Assembly: GCF_025753855.1 (NCBI RefSeq)
Contig: NZ_JAOWPT010000002.1
Coordinates: 992,001-1,056,000 of the forward strand
DNA from: Mesorhizobium sp. ZC-5
GTDB taxonomy: Bacteria; Pseudomonadota; Alphaproteobacteria; Rhizobiales; Rhizobiaceae
Reading direction: 5' to 3'
DNA length: 64,000 bases
Shown here: positions 20,005 through 33,454 of the stretch, piece by piece
How positions within the stretch are numbered: the stretch's first letter is position 1
Layout of the letters: each line of letters opens with the position of its first letter
Position numbers and translations under genes: made by a program
The notes under the pieces: generated by a model
Database searches by the model: none
What the model was told of the DNA's origin: nothing
What the model saw: only the letters and a program-made list of their open reading frames with translations

Positions 20005-20886
20005 TCAGGCGGTGACGAGCAGTGCTTCACGCATCGTCGCCCCGACCAGATGCGGACGCTCAGCTATGATGACGCCCGCCGCCTGAAGCGCGCGTATCTT
20101 GCTCTCCGCGTCACCGGCCAGGTTTTGCGCGATGGCGCCTGCATGCCCCATGCGATGTTCGATCGGCGCATAACGGCCGACGATGAGCGCGACCACCGGA
20201 ATTTTAGGCTTCACGGCCGCCACGAAATCCGCCAGTTCCTCTTCGTCCGAACCGCCGATCTCGCCAATGGCGATGACGCCGCGCGTGTCTCGATCCGCCA
20301 GGAAAAGTTCCAGGCATCGGCGCATTCCCAGACCATGGATGGCGTCGCCGCCGATGCCGACGGTGGTCGACTGGCCAAGGCCGGCGTCGCTCACCTGGGC
20401 AATCACCTCGCTGGTCAGCGACGCCGAGCGCGACATGATGCCGATGCTGCCGCTACGGGCCTGGCCGGTCGTCATCACACCGATCTTGCACACTTCGGGC
20501 GCTAGAATCCCTTGCGAGTTCGGCCCGACCAGAATGGTCAAACTTTGCTTCAGGGCATCGCGCACGCGGATCATATCCCGTACCGGAACGCGCTCCGTCA
20601 GCGCCACGACCAGCGGCATGCCCGCCTCGATCGCCTCGATCATGGCCGCCGCCGCATTGCCCGGCGGCACGAACACCATGCTGGCATTCGCGCCGGTTTC
20701 GGCCATCGCTTCGGCCACCGTGCCAAAGATCGGCAGGTTCAAATGACGGGTGCCGGCCTTGCCCGGAGTAACGCCACCGACAATGCGCGTGCCATATTCG
20801 AGCATCGCGGCGGAATAGTGCGTCCCGGCCCAGCCGGTCATGCCCTGGCAGATCACCCGTGTATCGTGGTCGACGAGAATGGTCAT
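20005..20886 (-). CDS. SucD-like CoA ligase alpha subunit (oxalate cassette)
   Basis: This 293-residue protein has the layout of the succinyl-CoA synthetase alpha subunit: an N-terminal CoA-binding fold (VICQGMTGWAGTHYSAAMLEYG, then GGVTPGKAGTRHLNLPIFGTV), GPNSQGILAPEVCKIGVM, and the phosphohistidine H248 in HRMGHAGAI. All catalytic elements appear intact. It follows its beta partner with a 4-base overlap. Its position in a regulon with oxc and frc, rather than next to mdh/sucAB, indicates a paralogue with another acid substrate, for example oxalate, formate or malate (MtkB type). The substrate is inference. Confidence 0.85.
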   Translation of the reverse strand: MTILVDHDTRVICQGMTGWAGTHYSAAMLEYGTRIVGGVTPGKAGTRHLNLPIFGTVAEAMAETGANASMVFVPPGNAAAAMIEAIEAGMPLVVALTERVPVRDMIRVRDALKQSLTILVGPNSQGILAPEVCKIGVMTTGQARSGSIGIMSRSASLTSEVIAQVSDAGLGQSTTVGIGGDAIHGLGMRRCLELFLADRDTRGVIAIGEIGGSDEEELADFVAAVKPKIPVVALIVGRYAPIEHRMGHAGAIAQNLAGDAESKIRALQAAGVIIAERPHLVGATMREALLVTA

Positions 20887-22064
20887 GGCTGGCCTTCTCC
20901 GGATTGTGCGGCGCTAACGGCACGAGTCACCGCAGTCCACATGTCGGGGCAGTCGATCACCTTGCAGCCGAAGTTGGCGAAACGGAACCGTGCGTATTCG
21001 GCGTTGTTGCCTGCCAGGCGCACCACGATGGGTAATGTCCGCTTGTTTCTGCGCATGGCGATGCCGAGGCCATCGGCGATCGTGTCGCAAGGCTGCATGC
21101 CGCCACCGTGAACATTCACGAGGACAGACCGTACCGCCGGATTGTCGAGCAGCAGGGCAAAACCATGCGCCACGTCGAGGCTCGTGGCGGTGGTGCGGAT
21201 ATCCATGAAATTGGCTGGTCTGCCATTGGCGACGCGCACCATGTCGAGCGTCGCCAGGCCCAGTCCCGCGCCGTTCGCCACCAACCCGATATCGCCATCC
21301 AGCGCGACATAGTTGAGGTTGCGGTTCTGTACCGCGATCTCGATCGCGTCGCTTTCTGACGGCTCCCGCAACGCCAGCAATTCCGGCTGCCGGAATAGAG
21401 CGTTATCGTCGATGGTGATCTTGGCGTCGACGGCCACGAAATCTCCCGGCGCGGTGACAGCCAGGGGATTGATCTCGATCAGCGTGGCATCGAGTTCCAA
21501 AAAAGCTTGCCGCAGCCTTTCGAGAAGCGCGACGAACGATGGTATCAGGCCGTTGGCAAGACCGAGCCTCGCGCCGAGCCCCGCAGCTGCGGATCTGTCG
21601 AACGAACGCTCGGTGCCGAGGGGGAGTTGCTCGAACCGGGCTTGCCCGCTCAGAACGCGCCGCTCGATATCGTCTCCCCCCTCCGCCGCGGCGAGAGCGA
21701 CGATTTCGGCAGTCGAAGGCGCGACGAACAGTGAAAGATAGAGGCTTTGCTGTGGCCTGACGGCGGCCTCGACCAAGACCCTGCTGACAAGATGGCCGGT
21801 TGGCGCGGTCTGTTCCGTTGCGAGACGCCGACCAAGCAAATCGCCTGCCGCGGCCATTACCTCTTCCGGTGAGGAGACGATACGTACGCCGCCGGCGCGG
21901 CCCCGCGCGCCGGCCTGGATTTGCGCCTTGACCGCAAACCCGGTCGCCTTGAGGTTGCCGGCAATATCCCGTGCCTCCTCCTTCGTGGAAGCGACTTGTC
22001 CCTCGGGCACGTTTACGCCGCGCGGCGACAACAGCATCTTGGACTGGAACTCGTGCAGGTTCAC
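20883..22064 (-). CDS. SucC-like CoA ligase beta subunit (oxalate cassette)
   Basis: This is a 393-residue ATP-grasp beta subunit. It starts at a GTG (NLHEFQSKMLLSPRGVNVPEG) with a GGAGG site and contains AVKAQIQAGARGRAGGVRI, the ATP-binding segment. It also has LIEINPLAV and DAKITIDDNALFRQPE in the metal site, and ends in the CoA-ligase domain (GLGLATLDMV, NVHGGGMQPCDTIADGL). In true SucC the corresponding glycine motif is GGIVRCD; here the M-Q replacement suggests altered acid specificity. It is transcribed with the SucD-like gene from a TTGACA-N17-CATTAT promoter overlapped by operator 1. Confidence 0.85.
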   Translation of the reverse strand: MNLHEFQSKMLLSPRGVNVPEGQVASTKEEARDIAGNLKATGFAVKAQIQAGARGRAGGVRIVSSPEEVMAAAGDLLGRRLATEQTAPTGHLVSRVLVEAAVRPQQSLYLSLFVAPSTAEIVALAAAEGGDDIERRVLSGQARFEQLPLGTERSFDRSAAAGLGARLGLANGLIPSFVALLERLRQAFLELDATLIEINPLAVTAPGDFVAVDAKITIDDNALFRQPELLALREPSESDAIEIAVQNRNLNYVALDGDIGLVANGAGLGLATLDMVRVANGRPANFMDIRTTATSLDVAHGFALLLDNPAVRSVLVNVHGGGMQPCDTIADGLGIAMRRNKRTLPIVVRLAGNNAEYARFRFANFGCKVIDCPDMWTAVTRAVSAAQSGEGQP

Positions 22065-22137: not shown

Positions 22138-22154
22138 TGGCATACATAATGCCA
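22138..22154. promoter_or_regulatory. Operator 1, TGGCAT-N5-ATGCCA
   Basis: TGGCATACATAATGCCA is a perfect 6+6 palindrome with a 5-base spacer, 74 bases upstream of the SucC-like start. It covers the -10 hexamer of the promoter reading toward that gene. It is one of five matching sites in the 20-32 kb cassette. Confidence 0.8.
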
Positions 22155-22174
22155 ATACCGCTCGAAACTGTCAA
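22146..22174 (-). promoter_or_regulatory. Promoter of the sucC/sucD-like operon
   Basis: On the minus strand TTGACA (22174-22169) and CATTAT (22151-22146) are 17 bases apart. The -10 lies inside operator 1, so binding there should block RNA polymerase. Confidence 0.7.
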
Positions 22175-22233
22175 TCGCTTCGCCGGCATGCGACCGGCGC
22201 GGCCCGCCTCGATGAGGGGAGCTACAAACAGGC

Positions 22234-22266
22234 AAAGCCGGACGGCATTTCTGCCGTCCGGCTTTT
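22234..22266 (-). terminator. Terminator of the oxc-frc operon
   Basis: A 14-bp perfect hairpin, AAAGCCGGACGGCA (22234-22247) with its complement at 22252-22265 and a 4-base loop, lies 18 bases after the frc stop. Short T-runs flank both sides, so it can work in either direction. Confidence 0.82.
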
Positions 22267-22283
22267 CGGGTTGGCCATCAAAA

Positions 22284-23558
22284 CTACTCAGCGGCGATCT
22301 GCTTGGGGACGCCGAGAGCTCCGGAAGCGTTCAATTCGGCAATCCCCTGGTCGTCATAACCGAGGACCTGGCTGAGTATTTCCTCGGTGTGCTCTCCGAG
22401 CAGCGGCGAACGTTTCACCTCCGAAGGGCTGTCCGACAGCTTGATCGGATTGCCTACGGAAAGATATTTTCCCCGTGCCGGATGGTCGACCTCGACCACC
22501 GTCCCGGTGGCGCGCAGAGATTGATCCTCGGCGAGTTCCTTCATGGAGAGGATCGGGCCTACCGGAATATCGACGGCGTTGCAGATCTCCATCACCTCGA
22601 ACTTGGTCTTGGTCATCGTCCATTGTTCGATGCGCGCGAAGATCGCGTTCAGCTTTGGCAGGCGGGCCGGCGGCGTCGCGTAGTCCGGGTCGGTTTTCCA
22701 GGTCGGCTCACCGATGATGTCGCAGATTTTCTCCCACACCGGCGCCTGCGTGATGAAATATATGTAGGCGTCAGGATCCTGCTCCCAACCATTGCATTTC
22801 AGGATGCGCCCGGGTTGGCCGCCGCCTGAATCGTTACCGGCACGTGGGACCGCCTCGCCGAAGGGAACCCCTTCGCCGAACTGGCTATATTCCTTCAGCG
22901 GTCCGTGCGCGAGGCGCTGCTGGTCGCGCAGTTTGACGCGTGCGAGGTTCAACACGCCGTCCTGCATGGCACAGGTGACACGCTGGCCCCGGCCGGAATG
23001 GGTACGCTGATAAAGTGCGGTGACGATGCCGAGCGCGAGATGCAGCCCGGTGCCGGAATCGCCGATCTGCGCGCCGGTGACCAAGGGCGGGCCGTCGCGG
23101 AAGCCGGTGGTTGATGCCGCGCCGCCGGTGCATTGCGCGACATTCTCATAGACTTTGCAGTCCTCATAGGGTCCGGGACCGAAGCCTTTGATCGAAGCAA
23201 CGATCATCTTGGGGTTCAGCTTGTTGATCGTTTCCCACGGAAAGCCCATGCGATCGAGAACCCCTGGCCCGAAATTCTCGACCAGTACGTCGCACTCCTT
23301 GATGAGCCGCTCGAGAACTTCCTTGCCTTTGGGGTTCTTGGTGTCGAGCGTAACCGAGCGTTTGTTGTGGTTCAGCATGGTGAAATAGAGGCTGTCCACC
23401 TTCGGAATGTCCTGCAATTGCCCGCGCGTGATGTCGCCGGTTCCGGGTCGTTCGATCTTGATCACGTCGGCGCCGAACCAGGCGAGCAATTGCGTGCAGG
23501 TCGGCCCCGATTGCACATGAGTGAAGTCGAGAATCTTGACGCCTTCGAGCGCTTTCAT
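22284..23558 (-). CDS. frc: Formyl-CoA:oxalate CoA-transferase
   Basis: Frc moves CoA from formyl-CoA to oxalate, giving oxalyl-CoA and formate. The 424-residue class III CoA-transferase closely follows the known Oxalobacter enzyme: [33 protein letters not shown] (split here), [33 protein letters not shown], and the catalytic aspartate D167 in [14 protein letters not shown] glycine-rich loop [11 protein letters not shown] closes over the active site. The ATG at 23558 is chosen because GGGGAG lies seven bases upstream; the ATG two codons earlier is too close to it. It follows oxc by 12 bases. Confidence 0.93.
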
Positions 23559-23570
23559 GGGCATGCTCCC

Positions 23571-25307
23571 CTATTTCTTTTTCAGTGCGCTTTGCGGATT
23601 GAGATTGCCGATGCGGCCGCTTTCACTGCCGGCGGTCGGGTCGATCACCGCATTGATCAAGGTCGGCTTGCGGCTGTCCATGGCCGCGTTGACGGCGCGC
23701 TTTAGCTCGTCCGGCGAGGTCGCATTGACACCAACGCCGCCGAAGGCCTCCATCATGCGGTCATAACGCGCATCCTTGACGAAGACAGTCGTGGCTGGAT
23801 CCGCGCCCGCATTGTTGACGTCGGTACCGCGATAGATGCCGTTGTTGTTGAAGACGACGATGCAGACCGGCAAATCGTAGCGGCAGATTGTTTCCACCTC
23901 CATGCCGGAGAAGCCGAAGGCAGAATCGCCTTCGACCGCGAGCACCGGCTTGCCGGTCTCGATCGCGGCGGCGATGGCATAGCCCATGCCGATGCCCATG
24001 ACGCCCCAGGTGCCGACGTCGAGACGCTTGCGCGGCTGATACATGTCGATGACGCCGCGCGCGAGATCGAGCGTGTTGGCGCCTTCATTGATGAGGATGG
24101 CGTCGGGCCGTTCGGCTATGATCGTGCGCAGCACACCGAGCGCGCCGTGGTAATCCATCGGCACGTTGTTGTTCATAAGGCGTGGCGCCATCTTGGCGAC
24201 GTTCTCTTCGCGCTTTTTCGCGACCGCGTCGGTCCAGTCCGCCGGCGGCGCCGGCCATGCGCCGTCGATGCCGGCGACCAGGGCCGCCACGCAGGAGCCG
24301 ATGTCGCCGACCACGGGCGCGACGATCTCGACATTCGAGTCCATCTCCTTGGGCTCGATGTCGATCTGGACGAACTTCTTCGGAGCGTCGCCCCAGTTCT
24401 TGCCCTTGCCATGCGAGAGCAGCCAGTTGAGCCTCGCGCCGATCAGCATGACGACGTCCGAATCCTTCAGCACAGTCGAGCGCGCTGCTCCAGCGCATTG
24501 CGGATGCGTGTCCGGCAACAGGCCCTTGGCCATGCTCATCGGCAAGAACGGAATGCCGCTCTTTTCGACAAGCTGGCGGATCGCGTCGTCTGCCTGTGCA
24601 TAGGCAGCGCCCTTGCCGAGGATGATGAGCGGCCGCTTGGCATCTTTCAGGACGTCAAGAGCGCGCTTGACAGCGGCTGGAGCAGGAAGCTGGGCGGGCG
24701 CTGCATCGATAACCTTGACGAGCGATTTCGCTCCGGCTTCCGCGTCCATCACCTGACCGAAGAGTTTGGCAGGCAGATCGAGATAGACACCGCCCGGACG
24801 TCCCGACACGGCGGCGCGGATCGCGCGCGCCAGACCGATGCCGATGTCCTGTGCATGCAAGACACGGAATGCCGCCTTGCAGAGTGGCTTTGCAACCGCC
24901 AGCTGATCCATCTCCTCGTAATCGCCCTGCTGCAGGTCGACGATCTCCCGCTCGGAGGAGCCGGAGATCAGGATCATCGGAAAACAGTTGGTGGTGGCGT
25001 GGGCGAGTGCCGTCAGGCCGTTCAGGAAACCGGGCGCCGAGACAGTTAGGCAGATGCCGGGCTTCTGCGTGAGATAGCCGGCGATCGAGGCGGCATAGCC
25101 GGCATTCTGCTCGTGGCGGAAGGAAAGCACACGAATGCCAGCCGCCTGCGCCATGCGGCCGAAATCCGTGATCGGAATACCGGGCACGCCATAGATAGTG
25201 TCAAGGCCATTGAGCTTCAGCGCATCGATGATGAGGTGAAAGCCGTCCGTCAGTTCCGGCTCTGCGCCAGCTTGATTTGCATCTAGGCTTTGTACCATCG
25301 CGGACAT
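23571..25307 (-). CDS. oxc: Oxalyl-CoA decarboxylase
   Basis: Oxc is a thiamine-diphosphate enzyme that decarboxylates oxalyl-CoA to formyl-CoA. The 578-residue protein matches the known family along its length: [20 protein letters not shown], the ThDP-activating glutamate in [57 protein letters not shown], and the ThDP/Mg motif [24 protein letters not shown] ... FNNNGIYRG, split by the usual spacing. The C-terminus [16 protein letters not shown] holds the mobile CoA-closing segment. The ATG at 25307 has a GGGAG site seven bases upstream. With frc it forms the classical two-enzyme oxalate cycle. Confidence 0.95.
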
Positions 25308-25440
25308 TCCGCTTCTCCCAATTCTTCGCGGTATCGATTTTTCGGCTCTCATTCCTGGAGCGCGGATGGCGGTCTATTGCACCCGGACAACCCCACTTCT
25401 CAGATCGGAGCAATCCCCGTGGATGTCGACAGCGCGTCCG

Positions 25441-25500
25441 TCACCCCAGCGTGGCGTCGTCGGCTGCCAACCCAATGCGTACAGCTTCTGCGACGACCAT
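25441..25500 (-). CDS. Possible 19-residue leader peptide upstream of oxc
   Basis: A short frame reading MVVAEAVRIGLAADDATLG begins at 25500 behind a strong GGGAGGAG ribosome binding site (spacing five bases) and stops at 25441. It lies in the transcribed leader between operator 2 and oxc. A translated leader could influence oxc expression, or it may be a relic of a lost gene start. It is too short for any family call. Confidence 0.35.
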   Translation of the reverse strand: MVVAEAVRIGLAADDATLG

Positions 25501-25598
25501 TGTGGTCTCCTCCCTGAACCTTCTCCGCGTCTGATGAAGGTTCACTCAACGAAAAATGCCCAACCGCTTTCAGCAGGTCGCGGCATCTTTCTCAGCAC

Positions 25599-25615
25599 TG
25601 GCATAATAAATGCCA
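25599..25615. promoter_or_regulatory. Operator 2, TGGCAT-N5-ATGCCA
   Basis: TGGCATAATAAATGCCA is a perfect 6+6 palindrome in the oxc/tctC divergent region, about 290 bases upstream of the oxc ATG. It is the second of five sites of the presumed GntR/FCD regulator. Confidence 0.8.
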
Positions 25616-25687
25616 AAAGTCAAACATACGAAATCGACCAAAAACTGGGCTTGATTCGCGGCTGATGTCTGTTACAGTCCGTCGTCT

Positions 25688-25704
25688 TGGCATTTAGTAT
25701 ACCA
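25688..25704. promoter_or_regulatory. Operator 3, TGGCAT-N5-ATACCA
   Basis: TGGCATTTAGTATACCA lies 126 bases upstream of the tctC-like ATG and 89 bases from operator 2, centre to centre. One half-site carries the ATRCCA variant. The two sites probably serve the two divergent promoters separately or allow looping. Confidence 0.78.
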
Positions 25705-25829
25705 AGAACCGAGGAGGAAATTTAGCCCCGTGGAGAGTCGGGCTTTGAGCAACGGGAGGCACGACTAACAGCGGCACGGAAAAAACAACGGGCGGCCGTG
25801 GCCAATCAGCAACCTGGGAGGAAGCTATC

Positions 25830-26825
25830 ATGAAACTTGCAAGGACGTTGGCAACGGCGCTTACAACGGTGGCTATTTTTGGTTTTGCAGCGGCAGGGCC
25901 GGCCTTGGCCGAATGGAAACCCAGCAAGACAATCGAATTTATTGTTCCCGCCGGTACAGGCGGCGGCGCCGATCAGATGGCGCGAATGATCCAGGGCATT
26001 ATCCAGAAGCATGGGCTTGCCGATCAGTCCATGGTGGTCATCAACAAGTCCGGCGGCGCCGGCGCCGAAGGCTTCATGGACGTGAAGGAATCGGACGGCA
26101 ACGAACACAAGATCATCATCACCTTGTCGAACCTCTTCACCACGCCGCTCGCGACAGGCGTGCCCTTCAGCTGGAAGGATCTCACGCCGGTCGCCATGCT
26201 GGCGCTCGACAATTTCGTCCTCTGGGTGAACGCGGATTCGCCTTACAAGACGGCGCAGGACTATGTGGGTGCCATCAAGGCCGGCGCCGACAACCAGTTC
26301 AAGATGGGCGGAACGGGCTCCAAGCAGGAGGATCAGATCGTCACGGTCGCGCTGGAACAGGTGACCGGCAAGAAATTCACCTACGTGCCCTTCAAGGGCG
26401 GCGGTGATGTCGCCAAGCAGCTCGTCGGCGGCCATATCGACTCTTCCGTCAACAACCCGATCGAGCAGGTCTCCTTCTGGCAGGCCGGCAACACGCGCGC
26501 ACTCTGCGTGTTCGCAGCCGAGCGCATGGAGACGCAGGGCGCGGCGAAATGGGGCGATGTTCCGACCTGCAAGGAGGCCGGTGTCGATACCGAGTACCAG
26601 ATGCTGCGCGGCATATTCACGTCGCCGGGCGTGAGCCAGGAGGCGGTCGACTACTACGTCGCGCTGTTCCAGAAGGTGCGGGAGACACCCGAGTGGAAGG
26701 ACTTCATGGCCAAAGGCGCCTTTTCACAGTCCTTCATGTCCGGTGACGAATTCAAGGCGTGGGTGGCGAATGCCGAGACTCAGCACAAGGATCTGATGAC
26801 CAAGGCGGGGTTCCTCGCCGAGTGA
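25830..26825 (+). CDS. TTT (TctC/Bug) substrate-binding protein, oxalate cassette
   Basis: This 331-residue periplasmic protein has a Sec signal peptide (about residues 1-28, ending PALAEW). The Bug-family binding fold shows a first loop IEFIVPAGTGGGADQMARMI and a second GGTGSKQEDQIVTVALEQVTG; these two loops bind the carboxylate groups of organic acids in the family. It is the first gene of a tctCBA set transcribed away from oxc. The context makes oxalate the prime ligand candidate, but no TTT receptor for oxalate is assumed known here. A stable hairpin follows its stop and may set its higher expression over tctBA. Confidence 0.9.
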   Translation: MKLARTLATALTTVAIFGFAAAGPALAEWKPSKTIEFIVPAGTGGGADQMARMIQGIIQKHGLADQSMVVINKSGGAGAEGFMDVKESDGNEHKIIITLSNLFTTPLATGVPFSWKDLTPVAMLALDNFVLWVNADSPYKTAQDYVGAIKAGADNQFKMGGTGSKQEDQIVTVALEQVTGKKFTYVPFKGGGDVAKQLVGGHIDSSVNNPIEQVSFWQAGNTRALCVFAAERMETQGAAKWGDVPTCKEAGVDTEYQMLRGIFTSPGVSQEAVDYYVALFQKVRETPEWKDFMAKGAFSQSFMSGDEFKAWVANAETQHKDLMTKAGFLAE

Positions 26826-26830
26826 CCCTC

Positions 26831-26863
26831 AGTGGCATCCGGGGCCCGGCTCCGGATGCCACT
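26831..26863 (+). repeat. Intercistronic hairpin tctC/tctB
   Basis: AGTGGCATCCGG (26831-26842) and CCGGATGCCACT (26852-26863) form a perfect 12-bp stem with a 9-base loop between the binding-protein gene and the membrane-subunit genes. Such stems usually stabilise the upstream mRNA and lower read-through. Confidence 0.7.
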
Positions 26864-26898
26864 TCCCTTTGCAACAAATTCATGAAAGCGAGATCATC

Positions 26899-27429
26899 AT
26901 GGCACCCGAACATGATGTGATGCCTGAGGCTGTGCCTGGCGAAGACCAGTCCACCGTCACCACCAGGGTCATGGAATTAGTGGTTGCGGCCGTCCTCATG
27001 GTGCTTGCCGGCGTCGTTATGCTCGACAGCGTGCGCGTCGGCATCGGCTGGGCGTTCGACGGTCCGGAGGCAGGCTATTTCCCCTTCTATATCGGTCTCA
27101 TCATGTTCCTGGCGAGCGCGGTGACATTCGGGGTCAACCTGATAGGGCGCAATGCCGATACGTCCAATTTCGTGGAGCGTTCTGCCCTCCGGCTGGTGAT
27201 CAAAGTTCTGGTGCCTACCGTTGTCTATGCAGGAGTGATGTATTTCCTCGGCATCTACGTCGCCTCCGCGATCTATATCTGTTTCTTCATGATGTGGCTG
27301 GGCAAGTATTCGATCCGCAAGGCCGCGCCCGTCGCGATCGTGATTCCCCTCATTCTCTTCTGGCTGTTCGAAATCGCGTTCCTGATCCCGCTACCCAAGG
27401 GACCGCTGGAAGCAGCGTTCGGTTACTGA
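26899..27429 (+). CDS. TTT small membrane subunit (TctB-like)
   Basis: This is a 176-residue membrane protein with four hydrophobic helices (about residues 25-45, 62-82, 103-125 and 145-165), the standard TctB layout. It contains the family segment GPEAGYFPFYIGLIMFLAS, where the G-x-FP motif of TctB proteins is recognisable. The start at 26899 gives the usual cytosolic N-terminus; an in-frame start at 26869 lies close to the upstream hairpin. It pairs with the TctA-like permease 40 bases downstream. Confidence 0.86.
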   Translation: MAPEHDVMPEAVPGEDQSTVTTRVMELVVAAVLMVLAGVVMLDSVRVGIGWAFDGPEAGYFPFYIGLIMFLASAVTFGVNLIGRNADTSNFVERSALRLVIKVLVPTVVYAGVMYFLGIYVASAIYICFFMMWLGKYSIRKAAPVAIVIPLILFWLFEIAFLIPLPKGPLEAAFGY

Positions 27430-27469
27430 GGTTCAAGACTCCTAGGCCAATTTCGAGGACGAAATCCCC

Positions 27470-28996
27470 ATGGATGCACTGCTTTCGCTCATTCACGGCT
27501 TTGGCGTTCTCGCCGACCCTATGAATATCGTCTATATGTGCGTTGGCGTCGTGCTCGGCGTGCTGATCGGCGTGTTGCCGGGACTTGGCGGTGCAAACGG
27601 CATTGCCATCCTTCTGCCGCTCACCTTCTCGATGTCGCCCACCGCGGCGATCATCATGCTATCCTCGATCTACTGGGGCGCGCTGTTCGGTGGCGCGATC
27701 ACCTCGGTCCTCTTCAACATTCCGGGGGAGCCGTGGTCGGTAGCCACCACCTTCGATGGACACCCCATGGCGCAGCAAGGCAAGGCCGACCAGGCGCTGA
27801 CCGCCGCCTTTACCTCATCTTTCATCGGCGCGCTGCTTGCCGTTGCGGTCATCACCTTCCTCGCACCGGTGGTAGCGGGTTTCGCGCTGCGTTTCGGACC
27901 TGCCGAGTTCTTCGCCGTGCAACTTCTTACATTCTGCAGTTTCGTCGGCATGGGTCGCGAGTCGCCATTCAAGGTGCTGGCCGCCATGATGCTCGGGTTT
28001 GCGCTCGCGGCTGTGGGAATGGACTCGGTCACCGGACAACTGCGCATGACCTTCGGCACGGTCGAACTCATGCGCGGCTTCGACTTCCTGATTGCCGTCA
28101 TCGGCCTCTTCGGCATCGGCGAGATACTGCTCACCATGGAGGAGGGGCTGTCGTTCCGGGGCAAGAGCACGAAGATCACGCTGCGCTCGGTGATGAATAC
28201 CTGGGTTCGCTTGCCGCGCTTCTGGATCACCTATCTCCGTTCGGCGGCCGTGGGCTGTTGGCTTGGCATTACTCCGGGTGGCGCAACGCCGGCTTCGTTC
28301 ATGAGCTACGGTCTCGCCCAACGCTTCTCGAAGAATCGCGCCGGCTTTGGCAAGGGCGAGATCGAGGGCGTGGTTGCGCCGGAAACGGCCGCACATGCGG
28401 CTGGCACAAGTGCGCTGCTGCCGATGCTGACGCTCGGCATCCCCGGCTCGCCCACGGCGGCGGTCATGCTCGGCGGTCTGCTTATCTGGGGTCTGCAGCC
28501 AGGCCCCATGCTCTTCATCGAGCAAAAGGACTTCGTATGGGGTCTCATCGCCTCGATGTATCTTTCCAATGTGGTCGGCTTCCTGATCGTCTTGACCACT
28601 GTGCCCCTCTGGGCGTCGATCCTGCGTATTCCCTTCTCGATCATCGCACCGATCATCATCGTGCTCTGCTGCATCGGCGCCTACACCGTCCACAACGCCT
28701 TCCTCGATGTCGTCATCATGCTGTTCTTCGGCGTCGTCGGCTACGTGTTCAAGAAGCTTCATTACCCGCTGGCTCCGCTGGTTTTAGCGCTCGTACTGGG
28801 TGACATGGCGGAAAGCTCGTTCCGGCAATCAATGCTTCTGTCGCAAGGGAACATTTCCATCTTCTGGTCCAACTGGCTCGTGGGCTCGATCTGCGCATTG
28901 GCGATGGTCATGCTCTTCTGGCCGCTGATCGCGTTCTTCATTGACAAGGCGCGCAACGGCAAGCTCGGAACGCATGGCGAGACGGGGAGAGTGTAA
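27470..28996 (+). CDS. TTT large permease (TctA-like), oxalate cassette
   Basis: This is a 508-residue polytopic permease with about 11-12 membrane helices. The conserved TctA blocks are visible: VGVVLGVLIGVLPGLGGANG, then the loop NIPGEPWSVATTFDGHPMAQQGKA, and in the second half GITPGGATPASFMSYGLAQRFSK with MLTLGIPGSPTAAVMLGGL. It would import the acid captured by the binding protein, driven by the ion gradient (family knowledge). It is the last gene of the tctCBA set; the acyl-CoA synthetase follows after 348 bases with its own promoter. Confidence 0.92.
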   Translation: MDALLSLIHGFGVLADPMNIVYMCVGVVLGVLIGVLPGLGGANGIAILLPLTFSMSPTAAIIMLSSIYWGALFGGAITSVLFNIPGEPWSVATTFDGHPMAQQGKADQALTAAFTSSFIGALLAVAVITFLAPVVAGFALRFGPAEFFAVQLLTFCSFVGMGRESPFKVLAAMMLGFALAAVGMDSVTGQLRMTFGTVELMRGFDFLIAVIGLFGIGEILLTMEEGLSFRGKSTKITLRSVMNTWVRLPRFWITYLRSAAVGCWLGITPGGATPASFMSYGLAQRFSKNRAGFGKGEIEGVVAPETAAHAAGTSALLPMLTLGIPGSPTAAVMLGGLLIWGLQPGPMLFIEQKDFVWGLIASMYLSNVVGFLIVLTTVPLWASILRIPFSIIAPIIIVLCCIGAYTVHNAFLDVVIMLFFGVVGYVFKKLHYPLAPLVLALVLGDMAESSFRQSMLLSQGNISIFWSNWLVGSICALAMVMLFWPLIAFFIDKARNGKLGTHGETGRV

Positions 28997-29217
28997 CTGT
29001 GGAATTCGGCTCCTCGGCCTCCTGGGCAGATCGGCTGGAGATCTGGGCGTCGAGATCATGCCGCTCGCGGCGGCGTCGACCGGCGGCCGCGGAAATTGCA
29101 TTAGCCGGACCGAAGCTCCGGTGGCGTAAGGGTGGTTGCGTCGGAAGCATTGTTCCGCTCTGAACTTGCCGCGAAAGGCGAAATTTCGGAAGGGTGATCG
29201 AGTACTCCTTTCCTTGG

Positions 29218-29246
29218 TTGACAACGATTGCCCTGGTATACAAAAT
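29218..29246 (+). promoter_or_regulatory. Promoter of the acyl-CoA synthetase gene
   Basis: TTGACA (29218-29223) is followed after 17 bases by CAAAAT (29241-29246). The -10 lies inside operator 4. The rest of the 28997-29344 gap shows no other gene. Confidence 0.6.
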
Positions 29247-29250
29247 GCCA
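29234..29250. promoter_or_regulatory. Operator 4, TGGTAT-N5-ATGCCA
   Basis: TGGTATACAAAATGCCA overlaps the -10 region of the acyl-CoA synthetase promoter, 95 bases before the ATG. It is the fourth of five sites. Confidence 0.8.
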
Positions 29251-29344
29251 ATGCCGGCATAAGCGGGATCCGAAACAGAACCGCCCGGGGAGCCTATGCG
29301 AGACCGCTGCCATAGAAGGGCGCGTGACATTCATGGAGGAAGAC

Positions 29345-31471
29345 ATGCTGGACAGAACGGCCGCCCGCAACGTGCTGGACAAGGTGAAGGCGGAAGGACG
29401 CCAGGCGCTCACCGCGCCGGAAGGCAAGGTGCTCTGCGATGTCTATGGCATAAAGGTTCCGAAGGAAGGTGTCGCCGGCAACGCTGAAGAGGCAGCCAAG
29501 CTGGCCTCAGGCATGGGCTTTCCGGTGGTCATGAAGATCGTCTCTCCGGACATCCTTCACAAGACCGAGGCGGGCGGCGTCATTGTCGGCGTCAAATCGG
29601 CCGAGGATGCGCAGGCCGCCTACGAGAAGATCATTGCCAGCGCGAAGTCCTACAAGGCCGACGCCAACATCACCGGCGTGCAGGTCCAGCAGATGCTGAC
29701 CGGCGGCCAGGAAGTCATCATCGGCGCCGTAACCGACGGTTCCTTCGGCAAGCTCGTCGCTTTCGGCCTGGGTGGCGTTCTCGTCGAAGTCCTGAAGGAT
29801 GTGACCTTCCGCCTCGCCCCGGTCACGGAGGAGGAGGCGCTCTCGATGCTTGACGGCATCCAGGCGGCCGAGATGCTGAAGGGCGTGCGCGGCGGCGATC
29901 CGGTCGACCGCGCCGCGCTCGCCGATATGATCGTGCGCGTTTCGCAGCTTGTGAACGATTATCCGGAGATCTCCGAGCTCGATCTCAATCCGGTCTTCGC
30001 CACCAAGGATGGTGCGATCGCCGCGGATGTCCGCATCGTGGTCGACTACAACCAGCCCGCGCCGCGCCCGCGTCCAAGCCAGGAAGACATCGTCACCGCG
30101 ATGAATCGCATCATGAAGCCGAAGGCCGTTGCCGTCATCGGCGCCTCCGCAGAGGACGGCAAGATCGGCAATTCCGTGATGAAGAACCTCATCAATGGCG
30201 GCTACAAGGGCGAAATTTATCCGATTCACCCGAAGGCCGACGAAATCCTCGGCTACAAGGCCTATCGCAGCGTCAAGGACGTGCCCGGCACAATCGACAC
30301 GGCAATCTTCGCCATTCCGGCCAAGTTCGTCGCCGGCGCGCTCACTGAATGCGGCGAGAAAGGTATTCCAGGCGCGGTGCTGATCCCGTCCGGCTTTGCG
30401 GAAGCCGGCGCGCCGGAACTGCAGGAAGAGATCGTCAAGATCGGTCAGAAATACAACGTCCGCCTGATGGGGCCGAACATCTACGGCTTCTACTACACGC
30501 CCGCCAATCTGTGCGCCACCTTCTGCACGGCCTATGACGTGAAGGGGTCTGCAGCGCTCTCCTCGCAGTCGGGCGGCATCGGCATGGCCATCATCGGCTT
30601 CTCCCGTTCGGCAAAGATGGGCGTTTCGGCAATCGTCGGTCTCGGCAACAAGTCGGACATTGACGAGGACGACCTACTCGCCTTCTTCGAGCAGGACGAC
30701 AACACCAGCATCATCGCCCAGCACTGCGAGGACCTGAAGGACGGTCGCGCCTTTGCTGAAGCGGCCAAGCGGGTGTCCAAGAAGAAGCCTGTCGTCGTCC
30801 TGAAGGCGGGTCGTACGTCGGCTGGCGCGAAGGCGGCGTCGTCCCATACCGGGGCGCTGGCGGGCAACGACAAGATCTATGAGGATGTCCTGAAGCAGTC
30901 CGGTGTCATCCGTGCCCGCTCGCTGCGGCAATTGCTCGAATTTGCACGCGGAATACCGGTGCTGCCGACTCCCAAGGGCGAGAATGTCGTCATCATTACC
31001 GGTGCGGGTGGGTCGGGCGTGCTGCTGTCGGATTCTTGCGTGGACAACGGGCTGAACCTGATGGCAATGCCGTCCGATCTCGATGCTGCTTTCCGCAAAT
31101 TCATTCCGCCCTTTGGCGCAGCGGGCAACCCTGTGGACATCACCGGTGGTGAACCGCCGCAAACCTACAAAAACACCGTGAAGCTGGGACTTGAGGACGA
31201 GCGCATCCACGCCCTCATCCTTGGCTATTGGCACACGATCGTGACGCCGCCGATGGTTTTTGCGAAACTGATGGTCGAGGTGAAGGAAGAGATGGCAGCC
31301 AAGGGTATCGAAAAGCCGATGGTTGCCTCGCTCGCCGGTGACGTCGAGGTCGAGGAAGCCGCGGAATATCTTTACCAGCATGGCATCCCGGCCTATGCCT
31401 ATTCGACGGAGCTTCCCGTCGAAGTGCTGGGCGCGAAATACAAATGGGCGCGAGGCGCAGGCCTCCTGTAA
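29345..31471 (+). CDS. ADP-forming acyl-CoA synthetase, ATP-grasp first (oxalate cassette)
   Basis: This 708-residue protein joins the two subunits of an ADP-forming CoA ligase in one chain, with the ATP-grasp part first (about residues 1-235: KVLCDVYGIKVPKEG, GFPVVMKIVSPDILHKTEAGGV, LDLNPVF). The CoA-binding fold follows (about 255-360: AVIGASAEDGKIGNSVMKNL), then the ligase domain with the phosphohistidine H501 in SHTGALAG. The start at 29345 has GGAGGA four bases upstream. Relatives include acetate-CoA and pimeloyl-CoA ligases of this superfamily. In this cassette it could activate oxalate or formate directly to the CoA ester; the substrate is inferred from context only. Confidence 0.9.
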   Translation: MLDRTAARNVLDKVKAEGRQALTAPEGKVLCDVYGIKVPKEGVAGNAEEAAKLASGMGFPVVMKIVSPDILHKTEAGGVIVGVKSAEDAQAAYEKIIASAKSYKADANITGVQVQQMLTGGQEVIIGAVTDGSFGKLVAFGLGGVLVEVLKDVTFRLAPVTEEEALSMLDGIQAAEMLKGVRGGDPVDRAALADMIVRVSQLVNDYPEISELDLNPVFATKDGAIAADVRIVVDYNQPAPRPRPSQEDIVTAMNRIMKPKAVAVIGASAEDGKIGNSVMKNLINGGYKGEIYPIHPKADEILGYKAYRSVKDVPGTIDTAIFAIPAKFVAGALTECGEKGIPGAVLIPSGFAEAGAPELQEEIVKIGQKYNVRLMGPNIYGFYYTPANLCATFCTAYDVKGSAALSSQSGGIGMAIIGFSRSAKMGVSAIVGLGNKSDIDEDDLLAFFEQDDNTSIIAQHCEDLKDGRAFAEAAKRVSKKKPVVVLKAGRTSAGAKAASSHTGALAGNDKIYEDVLKQSGVIRARSLRQLLEFARGIPVLPTPKGENVVIITGAGGSGVLLSDSCVDNGLNLMAMPSDLDAAFRKFIPPFGAAGNPVDITGGEPPQTYKNTVKLGLEDERIHALILGYWHTIVTPPMVFAKLMVEVKEEMAAKGIEKPMVASLAGDVEVEEAAEYLYQHGIPAYAYSTELPVEVLGAKYKWARGAGLL

Positions 31472-31699
31472 CCCATAGGGTAACGAGGAGGCCCGAAGCG
31501 CGATTTGCTGAACGGTGAAGCGTTTCGGCTCCCTCCGTAAAACGCAAGAATGGAGCCCGGCCGGTCCACCATCAGCGGCCGGACTTGAGATATGTATCCG
31601 GAAGCTCGGGCGCTGCGTTTTCCGCGGATGTGAGTTCATGGACCCGGAACTCTTCCCGAACGGCAACGTTGGGCCAAAGAACTAGGGCGCTTACTGGAA

Positions 31700-31728
31700 T
31701 TGGCCGGGAAGTTTTTGTATGGCATTGT
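31700..31728 (+). promoter_or_regulatory. Promoter of the GntR/FCD regulator gene
   Basis: TTGGCC (31700-31705) and CATTGT (31723-31728) are 17 bases apart. The -10 lies at the same place within operator 5 as in the sucC-like promoter with operator 1. This also argues against translation starting upstream of about 31735. Confidence 0.55.
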
Positions 31729-31736
31729 TCATACCA
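31720..31736. promoter_or_regulatory. Operator 5, TGGCAT-N5-ATACCA (autoregulatory)
   Basis: TGGCATTGTTCATACCA overlaps the -10 of the regulator's own promoter, 21 bases before the chosen TTG start. It suggests negative autoregulation. Confidence 0.78.
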
Positions 31737-31756: not shown

Positions 31757-32491
31757 TTGAGCCCAAGAACCCAGGCACGCTGGCCGCAACCAAATGCGGA
31801 AACTCCTGAGCTTGTCTTGGAGCCGTTCGCAGCGGAGCCGAACTTCAAGACCCGTATCTACGAGACGCTGAAACACGCGATCACGAATATGGACATCTAC
31901 GGGATATCCGAAGACACCTGGCTTGATGAACGCCAGCTTGCGGAGCGACTAGGCGTCAGCCGCACGCCGATCCGCGAGGCGATCGCCATGCTGGAACAGC
32001 AAGGGTTCGTGAAGTCGATCCCCCGGCGGGGCATCATCGTCTTGCGCAAGACAAAACGCGAAGTGATCGAGATGATCCAGGTCTGGGCGGCGCTGGAAGC
32101 GATGGCGGCACGGCTGATTTCGAGCAACGCGAGCCGTCGTGATATCGACGGCCTCAGGGCCATTTTCGACAAGTTCAATGACGGCCACAAGCCGGCGGAT
32201 TATCTGGGCGAATATTCGGACGCCAACATCCAGTTCCACCAAGCCCTAATTCAGATGACCGGGTCGAAAATTCTGGCGGAAATGACCGAGAACATTCTGC
32301 TTCACGTCCGCGGGATCCGAAAAATCACGATAGGCCGTGACGATCGCGCCTCCCGGTCGATCAAAGATCATCTAGCGATTATTGATGCGCTGGAAAAGCG
32401 CGATACCGAAGCTGCCGAAAAGCTGTGCCGGGATCATACGCTCGGTCTGGCCGCCTATGTTGAAAAGCACAGCGAAGGCATTTGGACCTAG
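31757..32491 (+). CDS. GntR-family (FCD) regulator of the oxalate cassette
   Basis: This 244-residue regulator has an N-terminal winged helix-turn-helix (LDERQLAERLGVSRTPIREAIAMLEQQGF, then the wing SIPRRGIIVL). An all-helical FCD effector domain follows, with the metal-site pattern DANIQFHQALIQMTG, then DHLAIIDALEKRD and a late histidine in CRDHTLG. The TTG start at 31757 is chosen because GGAAGG lies nine bases upstream and because operator 5 and the promoter occupy the longer in-frame extension. It is the obvious binder of the five palindromes. The effector is probably oxalate or a CoA-pathway intermediate (inference). Confidence 0.88.
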   Translation: MSPRTQARWPQPNAETPELVLEPFAAEPNFKTRIYETLKHAITNMDIYGISEDTWLDERQLAERLGVSRTPIREAIAMLEQQGFVKSIPRRGIIVLRKTKREVIEMIQVWAALEAMAARLISSNASRRDIDGLRAIFDKFNDGHKPADYLGEYSDANIQFHQALIQMTGSKILAEMTENILLHVRGIRKITIGRDDRASRSIKDHLAIIDALEKRDTEAAEKLCRDHTLGLAAYVEKHSEGIWT

Positions 32492-32608: not shown

Positions 32609-33454
32609 TCAGGACTCGGGGAAGCCACCCAGTTCGAGCAGGCGGTTGCGGTCTTCGAGATCGATGTTGATGTCGAAGACGACGCCATCAGTGCGGTAGA
32701 CCAACTGCGCCAAGCAGATGACCTCCTTATGCGTGTTCTGGAAGATGCGGCGGACCCGCACAACCGGGTCGTGCACGCGGATGCCCAACTCGGCAGCTTC
32801 CTGCGGCATGGACGATACCACGCGAAATGTTTGGCGGACGTTGGCGAGGCCGCTTTCCTTGGTGTCGTAGAGCAGGGTGCTGATGAGTTCGCTGGCCCAG
32901 AGCTTCTCGGGAATGAAATTATAAATGTCCGTCGCGACGAAATACTCGCCCACGGTGAACGGTGCGCCGTTGCGGGAAAAAATCCGCTTCATGTAGCGAT
33001 AGCTGTCGAGCGGCCCACCATCCTCCGGCACGATGCGCAGTTCGCCTTGAGCCGGCCGCGAGGCGACGACCCGGAAACTGAGTTCGCCCCCGCGTTGCGA
33101 CGGCGAGCGGGTGAGAAGGTAAGGCACCGTTCCCGTCGTCTCCGGTTTGGCGGTCACGAAAGTACCGCGCCCGCGTTCGGCGCTGATCAGTCCTTCCGTT
33201 TCAAGCCCGGCCAATGCATGCCTCACGGTCATCGGTGACACGCCGAAGGCTGCCACCAACTGCTTGAGCGTCGGGAGCCTGTCGCCGATGTTCCAGGTGT
33301 CGTCGGCGATCTGCCGGCGGATGATCGCCGCAAGCTGGACGTAATAGGGCGTCCCGTCTTCCCGAAGCGTCTGTTTCTGTTCGTCAGCAAGCGGCAATGG
33401 CAGGGCTTTCTCAAACGTCTCTTTGCTTTCGTTATTGCATTCCCTTGAGAGCAT
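32609..33454 (-). CDS. GntR-family (HutC/UTRA) regulator of the ABC operon
   Basis: This 281-residue regulator has a winged helix at about residues 40-105 (YYVQLAAIIRRQIADDTW, LVAAFGVSPMTVRHALAGLETEGLISAERGRGTFV) and a C-terminal UTRA ligand domain (SYRYMKRIFSRNGAPFTVGEYF ... VVRVRRIFQNTHKEVICLAQLVYRTDGVV, split here). HutC-type regulators sense small metabolites such as sugar phosphates or amino acid derivatives. The gene diverges from the 33.6-41.2 kb operon across 171 bases that contain a 22-bp palindrome, so it probably represses that operon and itself. No clear Shine-Dalgarno precedes the chosen ATG. Confidence 0.88.
   Translation of the reverse strand: MLSRECNNESKETFEKALPLPLADEQKQTLREDGTPYYVQLAAIIRRQIADDTWNIGDRLPTLKQLVAAFGVSPMTVRHALAGLETEGLISAERGRGTFVTAKPETTGTVPYLLTRSPSQRGGELSFRVVASRPAQGELRIVPEDGGPLDSYRYMKRIFSRNGAPFTVGEYFVATDIYNFIPEKLWASELISTLLYDTKESGLANVRQTFRVVSSMPQEAAELGIRVHDPVVRVRRIFQNTHKEVICLAQLVYRTDGVVFDINIDLEDRNRLLELGGFPES

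Follow-up and report, generated by a model that had tools for sequence, protein, structure and literature searches.

Palindromic candidate operators of a GntR/FCD-type regulator in an oxalate gene cassette of Mesorhizobium

The cassette and its five palindromes

Plants and soils are rich in oxalate, and the bacteria that feed on it are important for the carbon of the rhizosphere and for symbionts. In Mesorhizobium sp. ZC-5 the well-known oxc and frc genes lie in a cassette with genes for a tripartite transporter, two kinds of ADP-forming coenzyme A (CoA) ligase and a GntR-type regulator with an FCD domain, all within the 64-kb window analysed here (GCF_025753855.1, contig NZ_JAOWPT010000002.1, positions 992,001-1,056,000). 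The cassette carries five copies of a 17-base-pair (bp) palindrome, TGGYAT-N5-ATRCCA, in which two inverted half-sites flank a 5-bp spacer. As read from the sequence, these palindromes very probably serve as operators for the product of the gene at 31757-32491, a GntR protein of FCD type that is most likely an autoregulated repressor. The proposed operators, their proposed binder and the genes around them are as follows.

22138..22154, unstranded: candidate operator TGGCATACATAATGCCA, exact match; precedes the sucCD-like operon and overlies the -10 box of a minus-strand promoter-like match
25599..25615, unstranded: candidate operator TGGCATAATAAATGCCA, exact match; precedes oxc-frc (minus strand)
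25688..25704, unstranded: candidate operator TGGCATTTAGTATACCA, exact match; precedes tctCBA (plus strand), just 3' of a weak promoter-like pair
29234..29250, unstranded: candidate operator TGGTATACAAAATGCCA, exact match; precedes acs and overlies the -10 box of a promoter-like match
31720..31736, unstranded: candidate operator TGGCATTGTTCATACCA, exact match; precedes the regulator's own gene
31757..32491, plus strand: GntR/FCD regulator (gntR), proposed binder of the five sites; Pfam GntR and FCD
20005..20886, minus strand: SucD-like CoA ligase alpha subunit; narrowly passes the cut-off of one NCBIfam succinate--CoA ligase alpha model and narrowly misses that of another
20883..22064, minus strand: SucC-like CoA ligase beta subunit; narrowly passes the cut-off of one NCBIfam succinate--CoA ligase beta model and narrowly misses that of another
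22284..23564, minus strand: frc, formyl-CoA:oxalate CoA-transferase; TIGR03253, 737 bits (cut-off 504)
23571..25352, minus strand: oxc, oxalyl-CoA decarboxylase; TIGR03254, 1031 bits (cut-off 739)
25830..26825, plus strand: tctC, substrate-binding protein of a tripartite tricarboxylate transporter; Pfam TctC
26869..27429, plus strand: tctB; Pfam TctB
27470..28996, plus strand: tctA; Pfam TctA
29333..31471 (start 29333 or 29345), plus strand: acs, ADP-forming acyl-CoA synthetase; Pfam ATP-grasp_5, CoA_binding, Succ_CoA_lig and Ligase_CoA_2
32609-33454: GntR/UTRA regulator, neighbour of the FCD regulator gene

Pfam and NCBIfam models match the gene identities put forward in a preliminary description of this DNA (sucC/sucD-like, oxc-frc, tctCBA, acyl-CoA synthetase, GntR/FCD); both TIGR03254 and TIGR03253 exceed their cut-offs, which places oxc and frc in the oxalate pathway. 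That description also had a site before every transcription unit of the cassette. Given the inferred start codons, all five sites are indeed intergenic and in front, at 73 bp from the start of sucC, 246 bp from oxc, 125 bp from tctC, 82 or 94 bp from acs (for its two possible starts) and 20 bp from gntR.

An exact scan recovers all five copies listed earlier, at 22138, 25599, 25688, 29234 and 31720, and finds no further copy in the window, where none had been noticed before either. From base composition alone some 0.001 exact sites would be expected per 9.6 kb and 0.7 per genome. Allowing up to two mismatches gives 13 matches in the window, where shuffled sequence averages 4.2 (standard deviation 2.05, maximum 10). 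The inverted pair occurs at spacer 5 only, with no instance in the window at spacers 0-4 or 6-12, and the spacer sequences differ among the five copies. One-mismatch copies at 23975 (within oxc), 32804 (within the UTRA regulator gene) and 40448 were not treated as sites. Matches similar to the copy at 23975-23991 recur within oxc at two loci of other genomes (L123 and L148), so that this copy probably reflects protein constraint.

A motif common across the genome would have told against the proposal, but it is not: the 6.34-Mb genome has seven exact copies, five of them in the cassette, and one exact copy of the reversed pattern. With up to one mismatch the numbers are 47 and 13, respectively. 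We inspected 15 of the 40 one-mismatch genome sites as possible additional regulon members and accepted none, each overlapping a mechanical frame of at least 90 amino acids; for two of them (L067 and L072) a position in front of a gene is the alternative. The seventh exact site (C7:206321) overlaps a 145-amino-acid frame, was likewise not accepted and is probably due to chance.

The regulator and its predicted mode of control

The product of 31757-32491 scores 47.4 bits with Pfam GntR (cut-off 27) and 91.4 bits with FCD (cut-off 24.3), and thus has the GntR winged-helix and FCD domains that define the FadR/FCD subfamily. Its start codon is backed by an ATG, GTG or TTG at the same position in relatives. 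It falls short of the NCBIfam model for NanR (71.1 bits, cut-off 260) and of that for the phosphonate regulator PhnR (TIGR03338; 108.3 bits, cut-off 271.5). Residues N157, H161, H205 and H227 are invariant among 31 regulator homologues; in view of FCD structures in general, we take them to be the likely metal and ligand site, from which we infer that the inducer is probably a small carboxylate such as oxalate. Also invariant among the 31 are R59, R69 and R73. Escherichia coli NanR is said to contact bases via Arg59, Arg69 and Arg73 (PMC8012715), the correspondence being our own matching of helix-turn-helix motifs and not an alignment. One homologue (L042, G052:C32:21708-22430) has two in-frame TGA codons; its genome holds six exact sites.

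Among the promoter-like matches in this region, the best two are those of sucC (TTGACA-17-CATTAT, minus strand 22174-22146) and acs (TTGACA-17-CAAAAT, 29218-29246). In both, the -10 box lies within the operator, which favours repression. At tctC a weak promoter-like pair, TTGATT-16-TACAGT, lies upstream of the operator. For gntR, the position of a site before the regulator's own gene points to probable autoregulation.

In the mechanism that we propose, the regulator would sit on its sites when substrate is absent, two of them clearly overlying the -10 box of a promoter-like match, and would keep off transport (tctCBA), activation (the sucCD-like genes, acs and frc), decarboxylation (oxc) and its own gene. 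A carboxylate of the pathway (oxalate, oxalyl-CoA or glyoxylate) would then bind the FCD domain and release the regulator. A sixth copy of the palindrome would put unlinked formate dehydrogenase genes under the same control.

This sixth exact site (C1:632792-632808) precedes a NuoE/NuoF-type subunit gene by some 65 bp, counted to the inferred start codon; next after that gene comes one for the alpha subunit of a formate dehydrogenase (TIGR01591, 710 bits against a cut-off of 666). Formate is the product of the Frc/Oxc cycle, and a site at formate dehydrogenase would therefore close the pathway. The predicted regulon is thus one that extends beyond the cassette, to the formate dehydrogenase genes.

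The sites and the regulator in relatives

Of 64 exact sites in nine relatives, 31 were inspected as loci (genomes and loci are denoted by G and L numbers). Sites precede a homologue of the NuoE/NuoF-type subunit in G387 (63% identical) and G315 (57%), and in G294 a gene that shares its domain layout. By locus, a homologue of this formate dehydrogenase subunit gene stands behind sites in L093 and L102, and in L085 the sites have acs on one side and a gene of that domain layout on the other. Genes of sucC type follow sites in L089, L090, L103, L109 and L110, glyoxylate carboligase follows one in L104 (28 bp away), and the oxalate/formate antiporter (TIGR04259) follows one in L112, as it also does in L051, L064, L117 and L215. 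In L086 and L115 the transhydrogenase gene pntA and a site are some 380-540 bp apart. Several sites in relatives have no identified target and some fall within coding-like frames.

Both kinds of ADP-forming CoA ligase (acs, 29333-31471; SucCD-like, 20005-22064) are preceded by sites and recur in many related loci, acs in many relatives adjoining gntR or oxc/frc at 69-96% identity. One of the two may be an oxalate-CoA ligase that primes the Frc/Oxc cycle. In two relatives an isochorismatase-type hydrolase gene stands behind an exact site (L164, 9017-9553; L113, 1680-2219); the enzyme might free oxalate from an amide.

A regulator homologue (E <= 1e-40) is present in 104 of the order's 397 genomes, that of ZC-5 among them. 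The other 103 have a median of four exact sites (70 with at least three, 5 with none), rising to six among the 42 with a close regulator of at least 56% identity (40 with at least three, 1 with none), whereas the 293 genomes lacking the regulator have a median of one (124 with none), in a comparison that ignores kinship. In its own family the regulator is rare, being present in 18 of 395 genomes including this one, and ten of these family genomes with the regulator have one to seven exact sites each. Two sampled congeners without it have zero and two. Nine genomes from six other genera carry the regulator at 76-86% identity, which suggests that the cassette is mobile or often lost.

We compared 96 loci with a regulator homologue: 32 from relatives in the order, 52 of 80 named public-genome loci and 12 from the same family. 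Exact sites occur in 20, 23 and 8 of these, respectively, the named ones including Bradyrhizobium, Bosea, Ancylobacter, Rhodopseudomonas and Methylorubrum. None of the 104 exact sites lies within a matched gene. For 81 a cassette-type match begins at most 450 bp downstream, most often gntR or acs, and 23 have none; gene edges here are tblastn edges, and low-identity paralogues were counted as matches. The first 84 loci (32 and 52) hold 83 sites, compared with none in each of five Markov simulations; all 83 are inverted pairs with spacer 5, other spacers from 0 to 12 giving 6 together and the reversed pattern none. The motif is thus kept near gntR, oxc, frc, acs or tct in several families, so that its conservation near oxc/frc, on which the earlier proposal hung, holds.

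Conservation is also seen position by position. In the syntenic family genome G476 the corresponding sites at oxc, tctC, acs and gntR are exact and that at sucC has one mismatch, as does a copy at the sucC position of G470. At the tctC position a scan gives exact sites in G476, G609 and G470, though the aligner left them unmatched. All 17 bases of the oxc operator are identical in three aligned relatives; at acs, TTGACA and most operator bases are invariant in seven sequences (six relatives), and at gntR 11 of 17 positions are invariant in nine sequences (eight relatives). These three operators, with TTGACA at acs, are the best conserved noncoding blocks in alignments with selected relatives.

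A number of observations weigh against the proposal that the FCD protein represses through these sites. The oxc operator has no convincing sigma-70 promoter alongside and that of formate dehydrogenase no convincing promoter, and the promoter-like matches as a set are not above chance (6, shuffle 3.5, standard deviation 2.1). At least three exact sites are present in 47 of the 293 genomes without the regulator, G368 has a regulator 67% identical yet no exact site in its genome, and some family genomes with the regulator have one to three exact sites only. Exact sites are missing from 45 of the 96 loci (12 of 32, 29 of 52 and 4 of 12), some of them clipped by contig ends. Among these 45 are all eight Burkholderiales loci examined (L126-L129, L137, L140, L151 and L167), four of which have a one-mismatch copy. 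The remaining 28 of the 80 named loci, with distant GntR homologues, have no exact palindrome (they do hold three direct repeats and two ten-bp cores). Upstream of gntR in L126, L137 and L140, TGATAT/TTGTAT-like repeats can be seen by eye and are perhaps a diverged operator. As for genomes with at least five sites and no close regulator, 18 of 19 have distant FCD homologues only (best E 4e-35, profile); in the six such genomes listed in full the sites are mostly scattered, those of G217 being mostly repeats of one sequence.

At least one exact copy is present in 268 of the 397 order genomes, so single copies are often due to chance, and the palindromes might be taken for a chance cluster or a repeated element. 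We find this hardly credible and rejected it, given the rarity in the genome, the specificity for one spacer, the Markov simulations, the differing spacers of the five copies and the occupied positions in relatives. Very improbable, too, is that another regulator binds the sites, such as the adjacent GntR/UTRA protein (32609-33454) or an unlinked FCD paralogue. The UTRA gene does adjoin that of the FCD regulator, and some relatives have two or three regulator paralogues, to which the half-site could be common. However, the sites accompany the FCD regulator in other families, gntR is the commonest among nearest downstream genes (44 of the 104 sites), and the UTRA gene as a tblastn query gave no match among those listed for the 96 loci.

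If the FCD protein is the binder, it could still activate transcription, either instead of repressing it or in addition. Next to the tctC operator there is a weak promoter-like pair and next to those of oxc and formate dehydrogenase no clear one, and an activating role is described for GlcC of the FadR subfamily (PMC11323563). We regard this as unlikely: at acs and sucC, with the clearest promoter-like matches, a protein bound over the -10 box would block RNA polymerase. It is rather more conceivable, if still doubtful, that the inducer and the purpose of the system are a neighbouring metabolite such as glyoxylate or glycolate, the oxalate genes being one branch. The glyoxylate carboligase of L104 would fit, and in Bradyrhizobium diazoefficiens the frc and gcl proteins are enriched in, or confined to, cells grown on arabinose, with the oxc protein following the same pattern in one of two fractions (PMC5996035). 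Against this, the conserved core is oxalate-specific: frc and oxc, both equivalog matches, and the oxalate/formate antiporter. The interpretation of the preliminary description, repression of the oxalate genes by the FCD protein, is overall supported.

Operator architecture and the wider regulon

The 17-bp palindrome would be one variant of an operator whose half-sites recur with a period of 7 bp. In the 84 loci, 51 of the 83 sites have TGG or CCA at their centre, which yields a third half-site at that period, mostly as the core TGGYATRCCA; such palindromic sites contain 50 full ten-bp cores, and outside such palindromes another 13 direct repeats of the form TGGYAT-N-TGGYAT and another 26 cores occur. 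Of the 32 sites lacking a TGG or CCA centre, 24 keep the G or C of a half-site, where chance would give 14 (p ~0.0003 in a post hoc test). The five sites of the window have the outer half-site pair only, none with a full ten-bp core or a third half-site, and the direct-repeat form is absent from the genome of ZC-5.

Operators of the FadR subfamily consist of TKGT/ACMA boxes with GT and AC two to three nucleotides apart, often with an extra half-site 7-12 nucleotides from the centre (PMC4494728, Suvorova et al. 2015). In many relatives the core, TGGYATRCCA, belongs to the two-nucleotide class of that survey, and the third half-site there is in keeping with such extra half-sites and reminiscent of the repeated GGTATA of NanR (PMC8012715); the five sites of the window lack a full central half-site. 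E. coli NanR, the GntR/FCD sialic acid repressor, is likewise an FCD-type regulator with half-sites of GGTAT type; it has operators in three operons, blocks transcription and is weakened by a carboxylate effector (PMC8012715). Its operators are direct GGTATA repeats, unlike the inverted half-sites with a 5-bp spacer of the window. GlcR of Paracoccus denitrificans is of the kind proposed here, a FadR-subfamily repressor of a two-carbon acid pathway that is released by its substrate, glycolate. It differs in controlling glycolate oxidase genes and is described as clustering with GlcC, PdhR and LldR (PMC11323563). Among the openly licensed papers that our searches listed, none treats a GntR-type regulator of oxc/frc, as judged by title or opening of the abstract, and the word oxalate is absent from the main text of the FadR-subfamily survey (PMC4494728).

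With moderate confidence we favour a wider proposal: that a regulator unnamed in the literature searched controls the whole oxalate route across Alphaproteobacteria, through a modular operator with half-sites in either orientation at a 7-bp period, from which the central half-site can drop out, leaving the outer pair. If so, that route would comprise uptake (by the tripartite transporter and the oxalate/formate antiporter), two kinds of ADP-forming CoA ligase, CoA transfer, decarboxylation and formate oxidation, to which some lineages would add the assimilation of glyoxylate and a supply of NADPH. With this operator the predicted regulon becomes concrete and testable, including members beyond the cassette, and ADP-forming CoA ligases emerge as candidates for the activation of oxalate.

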